Position numbers and translations under genes: made by a program. Positions 41,126 to 46,826 of a stretch of 64,000 nt of DNA are shown here, in pieces. Each line of letters starts with the position of its first letter. Within the stretch, counting starts at the first letter, position 1. The notes below the pieces were generated by a model. That model worked only from the letters and a program-made list of their open reading frames with translations. It made no database searches and was not told where the DNA came from. The stretch is from Crystallibacter degradans. GTDB lineage: Bacteria > Actinomycetota > Actinomycetes > Actinomycetales > Micrococcaceae. The stretch spans positions 1 to 64,000 of the forward strand of contig NZ_JABBCH010000008.1 of the NCBI RefSeq assembly GCF_012952295.1. The letters run 5' to 3'.

Positions 41126-42190
41126 TTATTTGGAGTCCGCGGCTTCCGCTGCGTCGGCTGCTTCGCCGAGCATCGGCAGGAACTGATCCAGTGCCCACGG
41201 CAGGCTCAGCGGGGATGCGGCTGAGATGGACAGCGTCAGGGTGTTGTCCGAATCGGCAACCAACGCGTCATTTTCGACGGCGGGAATCTGGCTCAGCAGC
41301 GGGTCCTCGATGACCTGCTGCTTGGTCTTGGCATCGGGCACCCAGGTGACAAAGATGTCAGATTCGAGCTCGTTGGCCTTCTCGGCGGACCACGGGATGA
41401 AGAACTCGCCGGAGTCGCTGGTGGCATTGGTGACGACGTCGGCCTGCTTCATGCCGATGCTGGTGAGGAACTTCGGACGGTTGTCGTTCATCGTGTAGAC
41501 GTTGACGCCGTCACCCTTAGCGGGCTCCAGATTGCCGTAGATAAACGACTTGCCCGCGAGCTGCGGGTACTCGGAGGCCTTGGCATCGATCGTCTGCTCG
41601 GTCTCGGCGACCAGCTTCTTGGCTTCCTCGGTCTTGCCCAGCGCCTCTCCGATCATCATCGTCGAGTCCTGCCAGTCCGTGCCGTAGGCCAGTTCCGGAT
41701 AAGCCACCACCGGAGCGATCTTGCTCAAGGTGTCGTAGTCTTCCTGGGTCAGGCCGGAGTAGGCGGCCAAAATGACATCCGGGGTCAGCGCCGCAATCTC
41801 ATCAAACGCGATGCCATCGGCTTCGGAGTACTGCTCCGGGGCCTTCTCGGAACCAATGGGAGCCCCGAGCTCCTCAAGCTTGGCATCCTTCCACGGCGTG
41901 GACTTGTTCTCGTTTCCGCCCCACTCGACTGCAGGCATTCCGACCGGCACGACGCCGAGCGATAGCGCTACGTCGTCGTTCACCCAGGAAACTGTGGCCA
42001 CACGTTCGGGCTGCTCTTCGATGACGGTCTCGCCAAAGGCATGCTCAATGGTCACCGGGAATGCGTCCGAAGACCCTGCGGCGGTTTCACCCCCTGTGGA
42101 ACCATCGGCAGGACCGGTGGAACAGGCGGATACGGACAGAAGAACAACGGCGGCTGCGGCAAGCATGCCGCGGACACGGGAAAGGGCCAC
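41126..42190 (-). CDS. Iron-siderophore ABC transporter substrate-binding lipoprotein
   Basis: FepB/FhuD-like binding protein, 354 aa, from GTG at 42190 behind AGGAG. Signal peptide and lipobox: GMLAAAAVVLLSVSAC. The mature part has two Rossmann-like lobes joined by a long helix. Family blocks: FPVTIEHAFGETVIEEQPER at the start of the mature protein, LTPDVILAAYSGLTQEDYD and FVTWVPDAKTKQQVIEDPLL. An iron box lies 33 nt upstream and nearly duplicates the one before the FecCD operon, 12 kb away, which lacks its own binding protein; the two probably work together. Confidence 0.93.
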   Translation of the reverse strand: MALSRVRGMLAAAAVVLLSVSACSTGPADGSTGGETAAGSSDAFPVTIEHAFGETVIEEQPERVATVSWVNDDVALSLGVVPVGMPAVEWGGNENKSTPWKDAKLEELGAPIGSEKAPEQYSEADGIAFDEIAALTPDVILAAYSGLTQEDYDTLSKIAPVVAYPELAYGTDWQDSTMMIGEALGKTEEAKKLVAETEQTIDAKASEYPQLAGKSFIYGNLEPAKGDGVNVYTMNDNRPKFLTSIGMKQADVVTNATSDSGEFFIPWSAEKANELESDIFVTWVPDAKTKQQVIEDPLLSQIPAVENDALVADSDNTLTLSISAASPLSLPWALDQFLPMLGEAADAAEAADSK

Positions 42191-42222
42191 GATGGGACTC
42201 CTCGGCTCAGAGGTAACGAACA

Positions 42223-42241
42223 AAAGTAAGGGTAGCCTATG
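42223..42241. promoter_or_regulatory. IdeR/DtxR-type iron box upstream of the siderophore-binding lipoprotein
   Basis: AAAGTAAGGGTAGCCTATG shares AAGTAAGG-TAGCCTA with the box at 30274-30292 and resembles the consensus TTAGGTTAGGCTAACCTAA. Position 33 nt before the GTG suits repression by iron-loaded IdeR. Confidence 0.75.
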
Positions 42242-42362
42242 CTTCGATTGAATAAGAAACAATCGCGTTACGTATTTATTGCAGTCGTTCCTGAACCTCA
42301 CACAACTGCCCGCCCGTACGTTTGCCTATCGGAGATAATGGTCTCGTGGAAGGAGCTTTACC

Positions 42363-42863
42363 ATGCCTGCAGTGCACTCCGTAATCGACACTCCCATCGG
42401 CGAGCTCACCCTCGTGGCAGTCGACGGGTCCCTGACCGGTGCGTATTTTCCTGCCCATAAACGGATGCCGGATACCGAGGCCTTTGGTCCCCGCGAGGAC
42501 GCTGGGTTTATCGACGCCAAACGCCAGCTGTCCGAGTATTTTGCCGGCGAGCGCACGGAGTTCGACCTGCCGCTGAACCCCAAGGGCGACGCGTTCCAGC
42601 TGAAAGTGTGGGATTTGCTGCAGAGGATTCCGTACGGCCAGACCTGCTCCTACGGACAGCTCGCCCGGGAGCTCGGTGACACGCATCTTGCCCAGGCCGT
42701 CGGCAATGCCAATGGCCGTAACCCAATCTCGATTATTGTGCCGTGCCACCGGGTTGTCGGAGCAGACGGCCGGCTGGTGGGTTATGCAGGCGGACTCGAG
42801 CGCAAAAGGTTCCTGCTTGAGCTGGAGGAGCCTGTGGAGATCAAAGCCGCCAAACTTTTCTAG
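42363..42863 (+). CDS. ogt: Methylated-DNA--protein-cysteine S-methyltransferase (Ogt type)
   Basis: Suicide repair protein that takes the alkyl group from O6-alkylguanine, 166 aa. Acceptor C128 in IIVPCHRVVG; helix-turn-helix region YGQTCSYGQLARELG; N-terminal block MPAVHSVIDTPIGELTLVAV. The start ATG follows GGAGC. First gene of a plus-strand cluster of seven genes of which five repair alkylated DNA; 42 nt separate it from the sigma factor. A second, different alkyltransferase lies one gene further on. Confidence 0.95.
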   Translation: MPAVHSVIDTPIGELTLVAVDGSLTGAYFPAHKRMPDTEAFGPREDAGFIDAKRQLSEYFAGERTEFDLPLNPKGDAFQLKVWDLLQRIPYGQTCSYGQLARELGDTHLAQAVGNANGRNPISIIVPCHRVVGADGRLVGYAGGLERKRFLLELEEPVEIKAAKLF

Positions 42864-42905
42864 GACGTAACCTCACATCATGAACTCCGGCAGCGTCTAC
42901 ACAGC

Positions 42906-43454
42906 ATGAAACCCTTCGAGCAGCTCGTCACCGAGCACGGCGCGATGGTCCTGCGGGTCTGCCGCGCCGTACTGGGACCGGATGAGGCCGAGGATGCCTG
43001 GTCCGAAACGTTCCTGTCCGCCCTCAAGGCCTACCCTGAGCTGCCCGAAGAGGCCAATACCGAGGCATGGCTGGTGACCATCGCACACCGCAAAGCCATT
43101 GACGTCACCAGGAAACGGTCGCGTAACCCGCTGCCCTTGGGGGAGTTACCCGACCGTCCGTCCGCAGATCCGCCGGAAGAGGACCAGGATTTGTGGGATG
43201 CAGTGAAGGCGCTTCCGGACCGGCAGCGCGAAGCCATCGCATACCACTATCTGGCCGGCCTGCCCCACCGCGAGGTTGCCGCCATCACCGGTTCAACACC
43301 GGAAGCAGTCCGGCGGGCCGCCTCGGACGGCATCAAGAACCTGCGGCGGACCTATCTGGCCCCGGCTGCAGCGTCCCTGGCTCCAGTTCCCCTTCCGGTC
43401 GGCTTCGTGCCGGCCCCTACCAGCATTTCCGTTTCGAAAGGAGAGACCCGATGA
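42906..43454 (+). CDS. ECF-type RNA polymerase sigma factor in alkylation repair operon
   Basis: Sigma-70 family factor of 182 aa with only regions 2 and 4. Region 2 (about 10-75): AMVLRVCRAVLGPDEAEDAW then SETFLSALKAYPELPEEANT and EAWLVTIAHRKAIDVTRKRS. Region 4 (about 100-150): LPDRQREAIAYHYLAGLPHR then EVAAITGSTPEAVRRAASDG, a full helix-turn-helix. A Pro/Ala-rich tail of about 30 residues follows. The stop overlaps the ATG of an alkyltransferase gene by 4 nt. No anti-sigma gene is adjacent. The position between two alkyltransferase genes suggests it controls the alkylation response. No strong ribosome binding site is seen. Confidence 0.92.
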   Translation: MKPFEQLVTEHGAMVLRVCRAVLGPDEAEDAWSETFLSALKAYPELPEEANTEAWLVTIAHRKAIDVTRKRSRNPLPLGELPDRPSADPPEEDQDLWDAVKALPDRQREAIAYHYLAGLPHREVAAITGSTPEAVRRAASDGIKNLRRTYLAPAAASLAPVPLPVGFVPAPTSISVSKGETR

Positions 43455-44068
43455 ACTCCGTTGAACCGGAATCCTCCGCCCTGCCGGCCCCGTTGCGGGC
43501 CGTTGATCCTGCCGTGCTCCGCGCACTGCAGACACATCTGGCGGCCGCTGCCGCCGAAGCCGGCTTGCTGGACTTGTCCTACACAACCGTGGACACTCCT
43601 ATCGGCAAACTGCTGCTGGCCGCAACGGACCAGGGCTTGGTCCGTGTCGCCTTCGACCGGGAAAACCATGACGCCGTGCTGGAGCAACTGGCGGGCAAAA
43701 TCAGCCCCCGGATCCTGCACTCTCCCGCCCGGCTGGCGGCCGCGGTGCGCCAACTGGACGAGTACTTCGCCGGGCGCCGCCGGGTGTTCGAGCTGCCGCT
43801 GGACTGGCGGCTGGCCAAAGGTTTCCGCCGCGAGGTGCTCGCCCACCTGCCGCAGATCGCCTACGGCCAGACCGAAAGCTATGCCCAGGTCGCCGCGGCC
43901 GCCGGCAGTCCCAAGGCAGTCCGCGCGGTCGGCACCGCCTGCGGCACCAACCCCTTGCCGGTCGTGGTTCCCTGCCATCGGGTGGTCCGCTCCGACGGCA
44001 GCTTCGGCGGGTATCTGGGCGGCACCGAAGCCAAGCAGCTCCTGCTCACCCTGGAGGCAGCGGCTTGA
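43451..44068 (+). CDS. Methylated-DNA--protein-cysteine S-methyltransferase with N-terminal extension
   Basis: Second O6-alkylguanine transferase, 205 aa. Acceptor C175 in VVVPCHRVVRSDGS; recognition helix YGQTESYAQVAAAAGSPKAV. Compared with the first, it has an extra N-terminal segment of about 45 residues (LRAVDPAVLRALQTHLAAAA) before the TPIGKLLLAATDQGL block. The ATG overlaps the sigma factor stop by 4 nt (ATGA), and its own stop overlaps the AlkB start by 4 nt (TTGA). Equimolar synthesis with the sigma factor makes a regulatory partnership plausible; that is inference. Confidence 0.93.
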   Translation: MNSVEPESSALPAPLRAVDPAVLRALQTHLAAAAAEAGLLDLSYTTVDTPIGKLLLAATDQGLVRVAFDRENHDAVLEQLAGKISPRILHSPARLAAAVRQLDEYFAGRRRVFELPLDWRLAKGFRREVLAHLPQIAYGQTESYAQVAAAAGSPKAVRAVGTACGTNPLPVVVPCHRVVRSDGSFGGYLGGTEAKQLLLTLEAAA

Positions 44069-44736
44069 AGGCACTCTTCGATCCCGTCCCCGCCGAACCA
44101 GTGGATGTCGCTCCCGGCGCCGTCCATGTGCCCGGCTGGCTCAGCCTGGAACAACAGGCCGAACTGGTGGAAGCCTGCCGCACGTGGGGGCGCGGGCCGG
44201 TGCCCTTCCGCGCGGCCAAGCTGCCCGGCGGCCATGAGATGAGCGTCCAAACCGTGTGCCTGGGGTGGCACTGGCAGCCCTACAAGTATTCCCGCATGGC
44301 GGAGGACGCCGGCGGCGGCCGGGTGCTTGAGTTCCCCGAGTGGCTGGCCGAATGGGGGCGCAAGGCACTGACCGATGCCTACGGTCCTGCGGCGGAGTCC
44401 GCGGGCGCTGCCTATAACCCCGACACTGCCCTCATCAACTTCTACGCTGATACCGCCAAAATGGGCATGCACCAGGACAAGGATGAGAAAACGGACCTGC
44501 CGGTGGTCTCCCTCAGCGTCGGAGACGACTGCCTCTTCCGCTTCGGCAACACTCGGACCCGCACCAAACCGTACACAGATCTCAGGCTCCGCTCCGGAGA
44601 CCTGTTTGTCTTCGGCGGTCCCAGCCGCTTCGCCTACCACGGTGTACCCAAGATTTACCCCGGCACCGCCGATCCGGCCTGTGGATTGGCATCGGGCCGC
44701 CTGAACCTCACCATGCGCGTCACCGGCCTGGCCTGA
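44065..44736 (+). CDS. alkB: AlkB-type 2-oxoglutarate/Fe(II) DNA dioxygenase
   Basis: Oxidative demethylase that repairs 1-methyladenine and 3-methylcytosine, 223 aa. Iron ligands H136 and D138 (MGMHQDKDE) and H192 (FAYHGVPK); 2-oxoglutarate-binding R212 and R218 in GRLNLTMR. NFYADT is the usual preceding block. The TTG start overlaps the alkyltransferase stop by 4 nt, with GGAGG 6 nt upstream. Third translationally linked gene of the alkylation operon. Confidence 0.94.
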   Translation: MKALFDPVPAEPVDVAPGAVHVPGWLSLEQQAELVEACRTWGRGPVPFRAAKLPGGHEMSVQTVCLGWHWQPYKYSRMAEDAGGGRVLEFPEWLAEWGRKALTDAYGPAAESAGAAYNPDTALINFYADTAKMGMHQDKDEKTDLPVVSLSVGDDCLFRFGNTRTRTKPYTDLRLRSGDLFVFGGPSRFAYHGVPKIYPGTADPACGLASGRLNLTMRVTGLA

Positions 44737-44766
44737 CGAGCACCCGAACCGGGAGATAATCGAGCC

Positions 44767-45369
44767 ATGGAAAAAACCGCTTCCGGCGTCGTACTGTGCG
44801 AGGACGGGCTGGCCCGGCCAGCGTGGGCCGCCGTGGACCCGATGCTGCGCGACTATTACGACACCGAATGGGGCATGCCCGTCCACGGCGAGCAGGCCAT
44901 CTACGAACGGATCAGTCTGGAAGGATTCCAGGCCGGACTGTCCTGGGCCACCATCCTGCGCAAGCGGCCCGCCTTCCGCGAGGCCTTCAAAGACTTTCAT
45001 CCGGACACGGTTGCCGCTTTCGGCGACGCCGATGTCGAGCGCCTGATGCAGAACGCCGGGATCGTGCGCAACCGCGCGAAGATCACCGCCGCGATCACCA
45101 ATGCCAAGGCGACCATCGCCCTGCGTAAGGACGGCGGACTGGACGAGTTTGTCTGGTCCTTCAAACCGGATGCCACCCCGGCACCCCAAAACATAGAGCA
45201 GGTGCCCACCACATCCGCGGAGTCCATCGCATTGTCCAAGGCCTTGCGCAAGCGCGGCTTCGCCTTTGTCGGACCCACCACCATGTTCGCGCTGATGGAA
45301 GCCATCGGCATGATCGACACCCACCTAGTGGACAGCCACCGGCGCGGCAGCTCCGGAGTCTGGGGCTGA
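44767..45369 (+). CDS. tag: DNA-3-methyladenine glycosylase I (Tag family), zinc ligands largely replaced
   Basis: Base-excision glycosylase for 3-methyladenine, 200 aa. Family blocks: DTEWGMPVHGEQAIYERISL, EGFQAGLSWATILRKRPAFR and SKALRKRGFAFVGPTTMFAL, containing the catalytic-pocket Glu and Trp. In E. coli Tag a zinc clamp is made by C4, H17, H175 and C179. Aligned here these are P18, Y31, H186 and S190, so three of four ligands are absent. The fold may be held without zinc. It follows alkB by 30 nt in the same operon. Confidence 0.92.
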   Translation: MEKTASGVVLCEDGLARPAWAAVDPMLRDYYDTEWGMPVHGEQAIYERISLEGFQAGLSWATILRKRPAFREAFKDFHPDTVAAFGDADVERLMQNAGIVRNRAKITAAITNAKATIALRKDGGLDEFVWSFKPDATPAPQNIEQVPTTSAESIALSKALRKRGFAFVGPTTMFALMEAIGMIDTHLVDSHRRGSSGVWG

Positions 45370-45579
45370 AAGCCGCCTCCCACGCTGGCAGGAAAACTGC
45401 AACGCGCTTCCACACCAGCCAATCAGGATTGCGGAACTGTCACAATTTCCGGCCGAATCACGGACCTGACAGCCGCGTGCCACAATGATTGCAGATGCCG
45501 GTGAACGCGCCCGCATCTGCCGGCCGGCAACGATGCTGTCCGGGCAAGACGTTGACACGTGCTGTTCGAAGGAGAAGTC

Positions 45580-45972
45580 GTGACCATACTTGTCGCCTAC
45601 GCGCCGCGCCCGGAAGGCCGTGCCGCTCTGTCCAAAGGTATCCAGATGGCCACCGCCCAGAACGAGAAGCTGGTCGTTGTCAATGCCAGCCCCGGGGGCC
45701 CGCATAAAGATACCTCGCTGGCAGATGCGCACGACGCCGAATGGGTCACCCGCGAGCTGAACAACTCCGGCCTGGACGCCGAATTCAAGCAGTTTGTCCG
45801 CGGCAAGGACGCGGTGGAGGAGATCCAGGAACTGGCCGAGAGCCTGCCTGCCTCGCTGCTGGTCATCGGCCTGCGCAAGCGCACTCCGGTCGGCAAACTC
45901 ATCATGGGCAGCACCGCCCAGGAAATCCTGCTCACCGTGGACTGTCCCGTGCTGGCGGTCAAAGCCCGCTAG
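45580..45972 (+). CDS. Universal stress protein family
   Basis: USP-fold protein of 130 aa, from GTG at 45580 preceded by AAGGAG. Blocks TILVAYAPRPEGRAALSKGI, LVVVNASPGG and SLPASLLVIGLRKRTPVGKL then IMGSTAQEILLTVDCPVLAV. The ATP-binding GxxG motif seen in many USPs is not clear (GLRKRT), so it may not bind ATP. A TTGACA at 45552-45557 could start a separate transcript, since a 210-bp gap follows tag. Its stop shares one base with the alkA GTG. Confidence 0.9.
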   Translation: MTILVAYAPRPEGRAALSKGIQMATAQNEKLVVVNASPGGPHKDTSLADAHDAEWVTRELNNSGLDAEFKQFVRGKDAVEEIQELAESLPASLLVIGLRKRTPVGKLIMGSTAQEILLTVDCPVLAVKAR

Positions 45973-46826
45973 TGGAAGTCTCGCTGGACGTCCTGCCTCC
46001 GTTCGATGCCGGTGCTGCGCTGGCGGCCCTGGCCGCCCATGCCGCACCGGGCCTCGAAACAACGGACATCGAGGCCGGCACCCACACGAGGCTCTTCGCC
46101 ACACCGTCAGGACCGGTCACCGGCACTGTGCGCTTCCGCCCCGGCGGTCCGTCGCTGTCAGTAGAAACCAATCATCCCGCTACCACTGCCGTAATAACGA
46201 CGGCGGTGCGCCGCTGGCTTGATCTGGACACGGACCCGGACACGGTCCGCGACGTACTGGGGCAGGATCCATTGGTCGGTCCGCTCCTCACGGCACGTCC
46301 GGGCCTTCGGATTCCCGGTTACCTGGACGGCTTCGAGGGGGCCGTCTGCACGGTCCTCGGCCAGCAGGTCTCGCTTGCCGCCGCACGGACCTTTACCGGC
46401 AGGCTTGTCAGCGCTTTCAGCAGTTCCGGCCCCGCCGGCCTGCACACCTTCCCGGCCCCTTCCACCCTGGCGGCTGCAGGAGCCGAACGGATCCAGCAGG
46501 CCGTCGGGCTCACCGGAGCACGCTCGCGCACAGTCCATGCCCTGGCAAACGCCTGTGCCGACGGTCTGGCCATTGATCCGGAAGGCGACCATGCCGGGAT
46601 CCGCCAGCGTCTGCTCGCACTGCCCGGCATCGGCCCCTGGACCGTGGACTACATTGCCATGCGCGCACTCGGAGACCGCGATGCCTATCCGGAGGGCGAC
46701 CTGGTGCTCAAGCGTGCCCTGGGTGCCCGCTCGGTCCAGGAGGTCCGCGCCCACGGCGAAGCCTGGCGTCCCTTGCGCGCCTACGCTGTCTTCCAGCTCT
46801 GGACTGCCGCCGCCTACATTGCCTAA
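45972..46826 (+). CDS. alkA: DNA-3-methyladenine glycosylase II (AlkA type)
   Basis: Helix-hairpin-helix glycosylase removing several alkylated purines, 284 aa. N-terminal AlkA_N barrel (about 1-95), then the HhH-GPD domain: EGAVCTVLGQQVSLAAARTF, hairpin LPGIGPWTVDYIAMRAL and catalytic D243 in DAYPEGDLVLK. GTG start overlaps the stress protein stop by one base. Last gene of the repair cluster. In E. coli alkA and alkB are in the Ada regulon; no Ada transcription factor is present here. Confidence 0.93.
   Translation: MEVSLDVLPPFDAGAALAALAAHAAPGLETTDIEAGTHTRLFATPSGPVTGTVRFRPGGPSLSVETNHPATTAVITTAVRRWLDLDTDPDTVRDVLGQDPLVGPLLTARPGLRIPGYLDGFEGAVCTVLGQQVSLAAARTFTGRLVSAFSSSGPAGLHTFPAPSTLAAAGAERIQQAVGLTGARSRTVHALANACADGLAIDPEGDHAGIRQRLLALPGIGPWTVDYIAMRALGDRDAYPEGDLVLKRALGARSVQEVRAHGEAWRPLRAYAVFQLWTAAAYIA

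Follow-up and report, generated by a model that had tools for sequence, protein, structure and literature searches.

Methylated Ada acts as a transcription activator, and the Ada response, which is autoregulated, includes genes of the ogt, alkA and alkB types. We have analysed an alkylation-repair operon with genes of these types in a 64-kb window (the whole stretch of DNA studied, read on the forward strand) of contig NZ_JABBCH010000008.1 of the soil actinobacterium Crystallibacter degradans (assembly GCF_012952295.1; genome of 4.96 Mb, 99.98% complete). In this operon the gene of an extracytoplasmic function (ECF) sigma factor is followed by that of a second alkyltransferase, referred to here as MGMT2. 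It is proposed, at somewhat better than even chances, that the operon drives itself: the sigma factor would run it and MGMT2 would be its dedicated partner, holding the sigma factor until the acceptor cysteine C175 is alkylated. As with Ada and AdaA-AdaB of Escherichia coli and Bacillus subtilis, an alkyl acceptor would probably double as the sensor, ogt/alkA/alkB-type genes are present and autoregulation is expected. Unlike in those systems, no zinc domain of the N-Ada type is present here and the sensor and the transcription factor would be separate proteins; moreover, the activator would be a sigma factor and the signal O6-alkylguanine, not a phosphotriester.

The association of the two genes has already been published, and the specific mechanism is what is added here. 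In the accessible part of a review that cites a 2021 classification (PMC8999054), 6-O-methylguanine DNA methyltransferases are documented as conserved in the neighbourhood of ECF122, with the mechanism called uncharacterised; the same source lists ECF122 among the ECFs without a cognate anti-sigma factor and mentions that the alkyltransferase could be involved in regulation. The pair in the window likewise joins an ECF sigma factor to a conserved neighbouring 6-O-methylguanine DNA methyltransferase and apparently belongs to ECF122, an identity that rests on the shared neighbour. Among the papers searched, no other one names ECF122. With the association already on record under ECF122, the value of the present analysis lies in a testable mechanism and not in the discovery of the pair. 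Within the portion of the literature that was searched, no sigma-alkyltransferase mechanism was found, nor a publication on the gene overlap, the MGMT subfamily, the promoter or the complementarity with Ada, some of which the 2021 classification may report. In Corynebacterium glutamicum, the available sections of one report (PMC3489674) tie the ECF sigma factor SigH to a cluster with a putative alkyltransferase, so that sigma control of actinobacterial alkylation repair has a precedent of another design. SigH-RshA is similar in that the sigma gene is followed by the partner gene and the signal is cytoplasmic; the difference, on the evidence of the same sections, is that RshA senses thiol oxidation, with the alkyltransferase as a distant target, while here the neighbour itself is the alkyltransferase and carries no ZAS or ASD domain.

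Open reading frames (ORFs) and Pfam profiles place seven consecutive genes on the forward strand, in the order ogt1, ECF sigma, MGMT2, alkB, tag, usp and alkA. The elements on which the argument depends are the following.

42297-42323, forward strand: promoter 1, CTCAC-N17-CGTTT, with the -10 half beginning 44 nt before the ogt1 ATG; exact match to CTCACN17CGTY at 42297-42322.
42363-42863, forward strand: ogt1, an ordinary O6-alkylguanine-DNA alkyltransferase of 166 aa (PF01035, 3.5e-35; PF02870, 2e-9), outside the MGMT2 clade.
42872-42898, forward strand: promoter 2, CTCAC-N17-CGTCT, with the -10 half beginning 12 nt before the sigma ATG; exact match at 42872-42897.
42906-43454, forward strand: ECF sigma factor of 182 aa, sigma2 and sigma4 only (PF04542, 7.1e-13; PF08281, 2.4e-10).
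43451-43454, forward strand: ATGA overlap of the sigma stop and the MGMT2 start, read from the sequence.
43451-44068, forward strand: MGMT2, the sigma-linked alkyltransferase of 205 aa with acceptor C175 (PF02870 at residues 43-118, PF01035 at 125-203).
44065-44068, forward strand: TTGA overlap of the MGMT2 TGA and the alkB TTG, read from the sequence.

An earlier note on this DNA had described the same run of genes without Ada, the two overlaps and C175 as the acceptor; the run is reproduced by ORFs and Pfam, the overlaps are exact at the positions given, C175 is identified by alignment, and the statement on Ada extends to the whole assembly (see below).

The sigma factor matches the region 2 and region 4 models, PF04545 covering the same region 4 as PF08281, while sigma1.1 and sigma3 are absent and Sigma70_ECF remains below the Pfam cut-off. 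Region 2.2 contains the acidic motif of the DAED type used for binding RNA polymerase, here DEAED, and the loose pattern D-x-[ED]-[DE] was found in 118 of 151 sigma orthologs. By its domain content and region 2.2 motif, the protein is an ECF (group 4) sigma factor. Since it is minimal (sigma2 and sigma4) and its DEAED is intact, it is expected to be active unless restrained.

The adjacency of sigma factor and alkyltransferase, on which the earlier note had built its proposal, is conserved in all three samples of genomes that were searched. With the window's sigma protein as query, 20 of 39 related genomes gave a match at E < 1e-29, clearly separated from the next matches (1e-12 or weaker), and MGMT2 adjoins all 20 of these orthologs; at 10 loci of weaker match in the relatives, no MGMT2 lies within 1.5 kb. 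Scores at the level of MGMT2 (146-436 bits) occur in exactly the 20 sigma-bearing relatives and the best MGMT elsewhere reaches at most 127.9 bits, a gap (127.9 vs 146) that is narrow at the lower edge. In the phylum sample of 296 genomes, where up to 11 candidates were scored per genome and absences are not firm, MGMT2 directly follows sigma in 56 of 56 matches of at least 63.9 bits, with the window and genome G025 counted and with one contig (L059) ending after the first part of MGMT2. Among the 62 listed matches below 63.9 bits, 15 were inspected, and 3 proved to be linked to MGMT2 and 12 to be other ECFs. The best 80 loci of a scan of named genomes include Streptomyces, Mycobacterium, Rhodococcus, Nocardia, Amycolatopsis, Gordonia, Kocuria and others; MGMT2 lies downstream of sigma in 79 of them, and the contig of the remaining one (L124) ends 112 bp past the sigma match. 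Judged from gene order, sigma and MGMT2 form a module that extends through the phylum, with an arrangement kept beyond chance, and confinement of the pair to close relatives is ruled out by the phylum sample and the named loci.

Two copies of the window locus (L001, L002) were excluded from all pair sets, and cut, interrupted or overlong loci (L022, L054, L059, L067) from one or more alignments; alignment A1 holds 69 and alignment A2 holds 67 of the 75 referenced pairs. A Sporosarcina locus (L179) was dismissed as a case of spread to Bacillota: its 8.5 kb have 64-72% G+C and its MGMT2 groups with that of Arthrobacter wenxiniae, so that contamination of the public assembly is likelier. Loci of Dehalococcoidia and Rokubacteriota come from metagenome bins and are the basis of no claim.

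MGMT2 carries the N-domain, the DNA-binding domain and the PCHRV acceptor motif, as seen with Pfam and in the sequence; by these features it is an alkyltransferase of the MGMT/AGT kind, with predicted activity. In a tree of 89 of the 127 MGMT sequences collected, picked for spread, the sigma-linked proteins fall into a single clade (98/89 support, with the bootstrap not fully settled) apart from 38 other MGMTs, which include the products of the adjacent ogt1 genes; row L104_2199 was counted as the MGMT2 of locus L104, and the pair group is then one side of a branch. This separate clade rules out MGMT2 as just another ogt. C175, H176 and R177 are invariant in 67 aligned MGMT2 sequences, the acceptor CHR is found in all 151, and an SPR motif stands about 90 residues before CHR in 141 of the 151; among the unlinked MGMTs listed, an SPR-like motif occurs at a spacing of 89 residues in one case and of 85 in four. 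Of the solved structures, those nearest to MGMT2 are M. tuberculosis OGT and the E. coli Ada alkyltransferase, with chains of 165 residues, and the best solved MGMT matches obtained with Foldseek are chains of 148-169 aa. M. tuberculosis OGT (PDB 4bhb, 4wx9) shares the fold and the active site (Foldseek E ~1e-14 to 1e-12, 36-39% identity); its solved chains have 161-165 aa against 205 in MGMT2 and, from these lengths, are without the 40-residue N-terminal extension. In the AlphaFold (AF2) model of the window protein, with a mean predicted local distance difference test score (pLDDT) of 94.1, helix 20-36 lies inside this extension (residues 1-40).

An overlap of exactly 4 nt (-4) between the end of sigma and the start of MGMT2 was counted in 128 of 156 pairs; the first set contributes 60 of its 77 pairs and the named set 68 of its 79. 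The first candidate codon within 30-40 nt of the sigma stop was accepted as the start; this rule is biased towards overlap but does not account for the pile-up at exactly -4. No natural fusion of sigma and MGMT2 occurs in the 156 pairs; locus L109 alone has both in one frame, with a stop between them. Sigma/anti-sigma pairs are usually arranged in this way, with the sigma gene first, the partner gene second and an overlap of stop and start.

Evidence for self-transcription comes from a promoter-like element. The set compared comprises 157 loci (80 named, 57 from the phylum sample and 20 from relatives), including near copies or close relatives, so that the loci do not count as 157 separate cases, and the cut locus L124; a dyad count upstream of them gave a single dominant signal, TCAC-N17-CGT[C/T]. 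Before the lead gene, CTCAC-N17-CGTY is complete (9/9) in 118 of the 157 loci against 0.45 expected from a first-order Markov model, and reaches 8/9 or better in 142. The complete element precedes 40 of 48 ogt1-led loci (0.10 expected) and 78 of 109 sigma-led loci (0.35 expected); directly before sigma in the ogt1-led loci it was found in 25 of 48, against 0.05 expected. Where the element is present, its -10 half lies 12-19 nt from the sigma ATG in 69 of 99 sigma-led and 25 of 25 ogt1-led loci, and the sigma message may therefore be leaderless; before ogt1 the -10 half is mostly further out. Promoters 1 and 2 are the only exact CTCACN17CGTY matches in the window. Because adjacency is conserved and the motif is shared before ogt1 and before sigma, the sigma factor very probably drives its own operon, and there is high probability in the more specific statement that it recognises CTCAC-N17-CGTY and so amplifies that operon.

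The earlier note had expected a comparison of the regions before ogt, tag and alkA to bear on whether the sigma factor runs the repair operon. The shared motif stands before ogt1 and sigma, while no exact CTCACN17CGTY match occurs upstream of tag or alkA and a housekeeping-like match precedes tag; these three genes (tag, usp, alkA) would thus be served by read-through only, and for them the proposal is not supported in the form in which it was made. In a consensus scan, the region has 2 sigma-70-like sites against 0.6 expected. With one mismatch allowed, 22 sites of the shorter pattern were counted in the window, fewer than the 36.9 expected. Genome-wide, CTCACN17CGTYT occurs 7 times against 5 for the reversed control; two of the seven sites are in this operon, four others overlap ORFs and the last (L225) is 187 nt upstream of an ORF. 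In the 39 relatives, 183 sites were counted in total against 179 control sites. A wider sigma regulon receives no support from the genome, relatives' and one-mismatch counts, and the 7 vs 5 sites speak for a regulon limited to this locus.

With regard to Ada, its zinc domain (PF02805) has no match in the whole genome, MGMT2 included, while the same search was positive in 6 of 14 control genomes. Among the 39 relatives, the pair is found in 20 and Ada in 7, never together, and 12 have neither (Fisher 0.003). Of 106 phylum genomes with a PF02805 match, 67 make up the strong Ada set; the pair occurs in 58 of the 296 genomes (a lower bound), and both occur in 7 against 13.1 expected (Fisher 0.02), or in 12 against 20.8 when all 106 are counted (Fisher 0.005). 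Since shared ancestry is uncorrected in these tests, the complementarity of the pair and Ada is a tendency and not an exclusion.

Scheme-wise, the mechanism may be described as follows. The sigma factor would recognise CTCAC-N17-CGTY and amplify ogt1, sigma, MGMT2 and alkB, with tag-usp-alkA reached by read-through. Unalkylated MGMT2, present at about 1:1 with sigma, would bind it, perhaps via the N-terminal extension, and keep it off RNA polymerase. Repair of O6-alkylguanine would irreversibly alkylate C175, upon which MGMT2 would change shape or be destroyed and the sigma factor would be freed. The freed sigma factor would give rise to more MGMT2, and fresh unalkylated MGMT2 would end the response once the lesions are gone. 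In this way a suicide enzyme would count lesions, and two proteins would do the one-protein job of Ada. The model of a held sigma factor was chosen because a self-transcribing minimal ECF needs a brake and MGMT2 is the only constant, usually co-translated neighbour, has the extension and is a suicide alkyl acceptor. From the sequence comparisons, it is likely that MGMT2 regulates the sigma factor, with either sign; that it is an anti-sigma factor relieved by alkylation stands close to an even chance, and that such a suicide-enzyme anti-sigma makes up a two-protein adaptive response standing in for Ada in many Actinomycetota is suggested tentatively, at a little less than even. The pair is a candidate for a widespread sigma-based answer to the question of how alkylation repair is induced in bacteria that lack Ada, and its predictions are clear: one promoter motif, one partner and one cysteine. 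If true, ECF signalling would gain a new type of signal, a DNA-repair reaction that has gone to completion on its own enzyme, and the locus would be a self-contained alkylation biosensor.

Several observations weigh against this model or lend it no support. No known anti-sigma domain (ASD/ZAS) was matched by Pfam in whole MGMT2 or in its residues 1-43. In L023, L057 and L072, the N-terminal extension looks proline-rich and not helical. In mutual information over the 151 pairs, most of the top inter-protein pairs fall in columns of the linker and the N terminus that are rich in gaps, which makes this covariation uninformative. The element is lacking before sigma in 23 of the 48 ogt1-led loci; a strong Ada domain is present in 7 of the 58 pair genomes, or in 12 with weak and partial matches included; and in 30 of the 80 named loci no other alkylation gene among those tested lies within 4 kb. 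Co-folding of sigma and MGMT2 (one read-through locus, 20+20 unpaired rows) gave a predicted template modelling score (pTM) of 0.56, a disordered junction and no confident interface, which neither supports nor excludes the model. The result is also compatible with MGMT2 as only an output gene, with the autoregulated sigma factor controlled otherwise, through its own synthesis or turnover or by another regulator, and with adjacency reflecting the first gene to switch on. We consider such an arrangement rather unlikely, although the motif precedes the operon, so that MGMT2 is a target whatever its other role, and its catalytic cysteine is kept in 151 of 151 sequences, as a working enzyme requires. 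The listing of ECF122 without a cognate anti-sigma factor (PMC8999054, in the part available) fits it too, as does C. glutamicum, where an ECF sigma factor with a separate thiol-sensing anti-sigma is tied to an alkylation-repair cluster, cg0184-cg0186 being up in the rshA mutant (PMC3489674, accessible sections). On the other hand, nothing requires an output gene to belong to a single clade, to keep a fixed order and to be overlapped by 4 nt in most genomes, while the presence of ogt1, alkB, tag, alkA and Oxygenase-NA varies. The extension of MGMT2 is retained though apparently dispensable for repair, and a purely catalytic role would be partly redundant as ogt1 lies directly upstream of the pair in 48 of the 157 loci. 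MGMT2 is also the sole constant gene family beside sigma in the 80 named loci, so that no other restraint on an intact self-amplifying sigma factor is evident.

A coupled pair is compatible with a complex of either sign, and alkylated MGMT2 could instead be a co-activator that helps the sigma holoenzyme to bind or open promoters. Methylated Ada is a precedent for it, and MGMT2 scores the Ada model (105.4 bits) about as well as the ogt superfamily model (104.5 bits). Nevertheless, a sigma factor with intact sigma2 and sigma4 should need no help, and the order of sigma and then partner with stop/start overlap is that of sigma/anti-sigma pairs, which makes co-activation improbable. There is very little probability that the sigma factor answers another stress and that alkylation repair is incidental. 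The universal stress protein in this operon and the 30 named loci just mentioned would suit such a role; against it, 50 of the 80 named loci have at least one of ogt1, alkB, alkA, tag, Oxygenase-NA and an Ada-like mini-protein within ~4 kb, the 12 unlinked ECF loci of the phylum sample show no match to ogt1, alkB, tag or alkA, and MGMT2, the partner that is always there, itself accepts alkyl groups.

Beyond the pair, the neighbours in the 80 named loci are ogt1 (37), Oxygenase-NA (21), alkB (15), the Ada-like mini-protein (14), alkA (12) and tag (10). Oxygenase-NA (PF09859, 3.1e-74; L040:2579-3298 and 21 named loci) is a 2-oxoglutarate (2OG)-Fe(II) oxygenase that often follows MGMT2 where the window has alkB. 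The mini-protein, of ~90 aa and similar to the Ada zinc domain, is encoded downstream of MGMT2 in 17 loci (L042:2558-2827, L038, L040 and 14 named, e.g. L108:5212-5460); that of L042 matches PF02805 at 6.8e-10 over profile positions 19-64. It retains three of the four cysteines and reads Gly at the position of the N-Ada acceptor cysteine, which we take to be Cys38, and could be a DNA-phosphate reader or a sensor remnant. In the window's own genome, the best candidate for it (E 0.018) was not accepted.

The remaining features of the operon are these.

44065-44736, forward strand: alkB, 2OG-Fe(II) demethylase of 223 aa with a TTG start (PF13532, 4.7e-48).
44733-44760, forward strand: predicted sigma-70-like promoter match before tag, CTGACG-16-GATAAT (9/12 in the consensus scan).
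44767-45369, forward strand: tag, 3-methyladenine DNA glycosylase I of 200 aa (PF03352, 4.1e-67).
45580-45972, forward strand: usp, universal stress protein (PF00582, 2.2e-19), with an alternative start at 45559.
45972-46826, forward strand: alkA, 3-methyladenine DNA glycosylase II of 284 aa (AlkA_N PF06029, 2.6e-20; HhH-GPD PF00730, 3.7e-8).

For usp, GTG 45580 is preferred over 45559 since GGAG precedes it; the gene lies between tag and alkA within the repair operon. PF01035 has three matches in the whole genome, namely ogt1, MGMT2 and a short protein at C59:137287-137472 (L003), which looks like an alkyltransferase-like (ATL) protein because its acceptor position is W. On the reverse strand, at 41126-42301 of the window, a substrate-binding protein of the iron-siderophore type (PF01497) is encoded divergently from ogt1; promoter 1 also lies in the intergenic region and may overlap the 5' end of the PF01497 gene.

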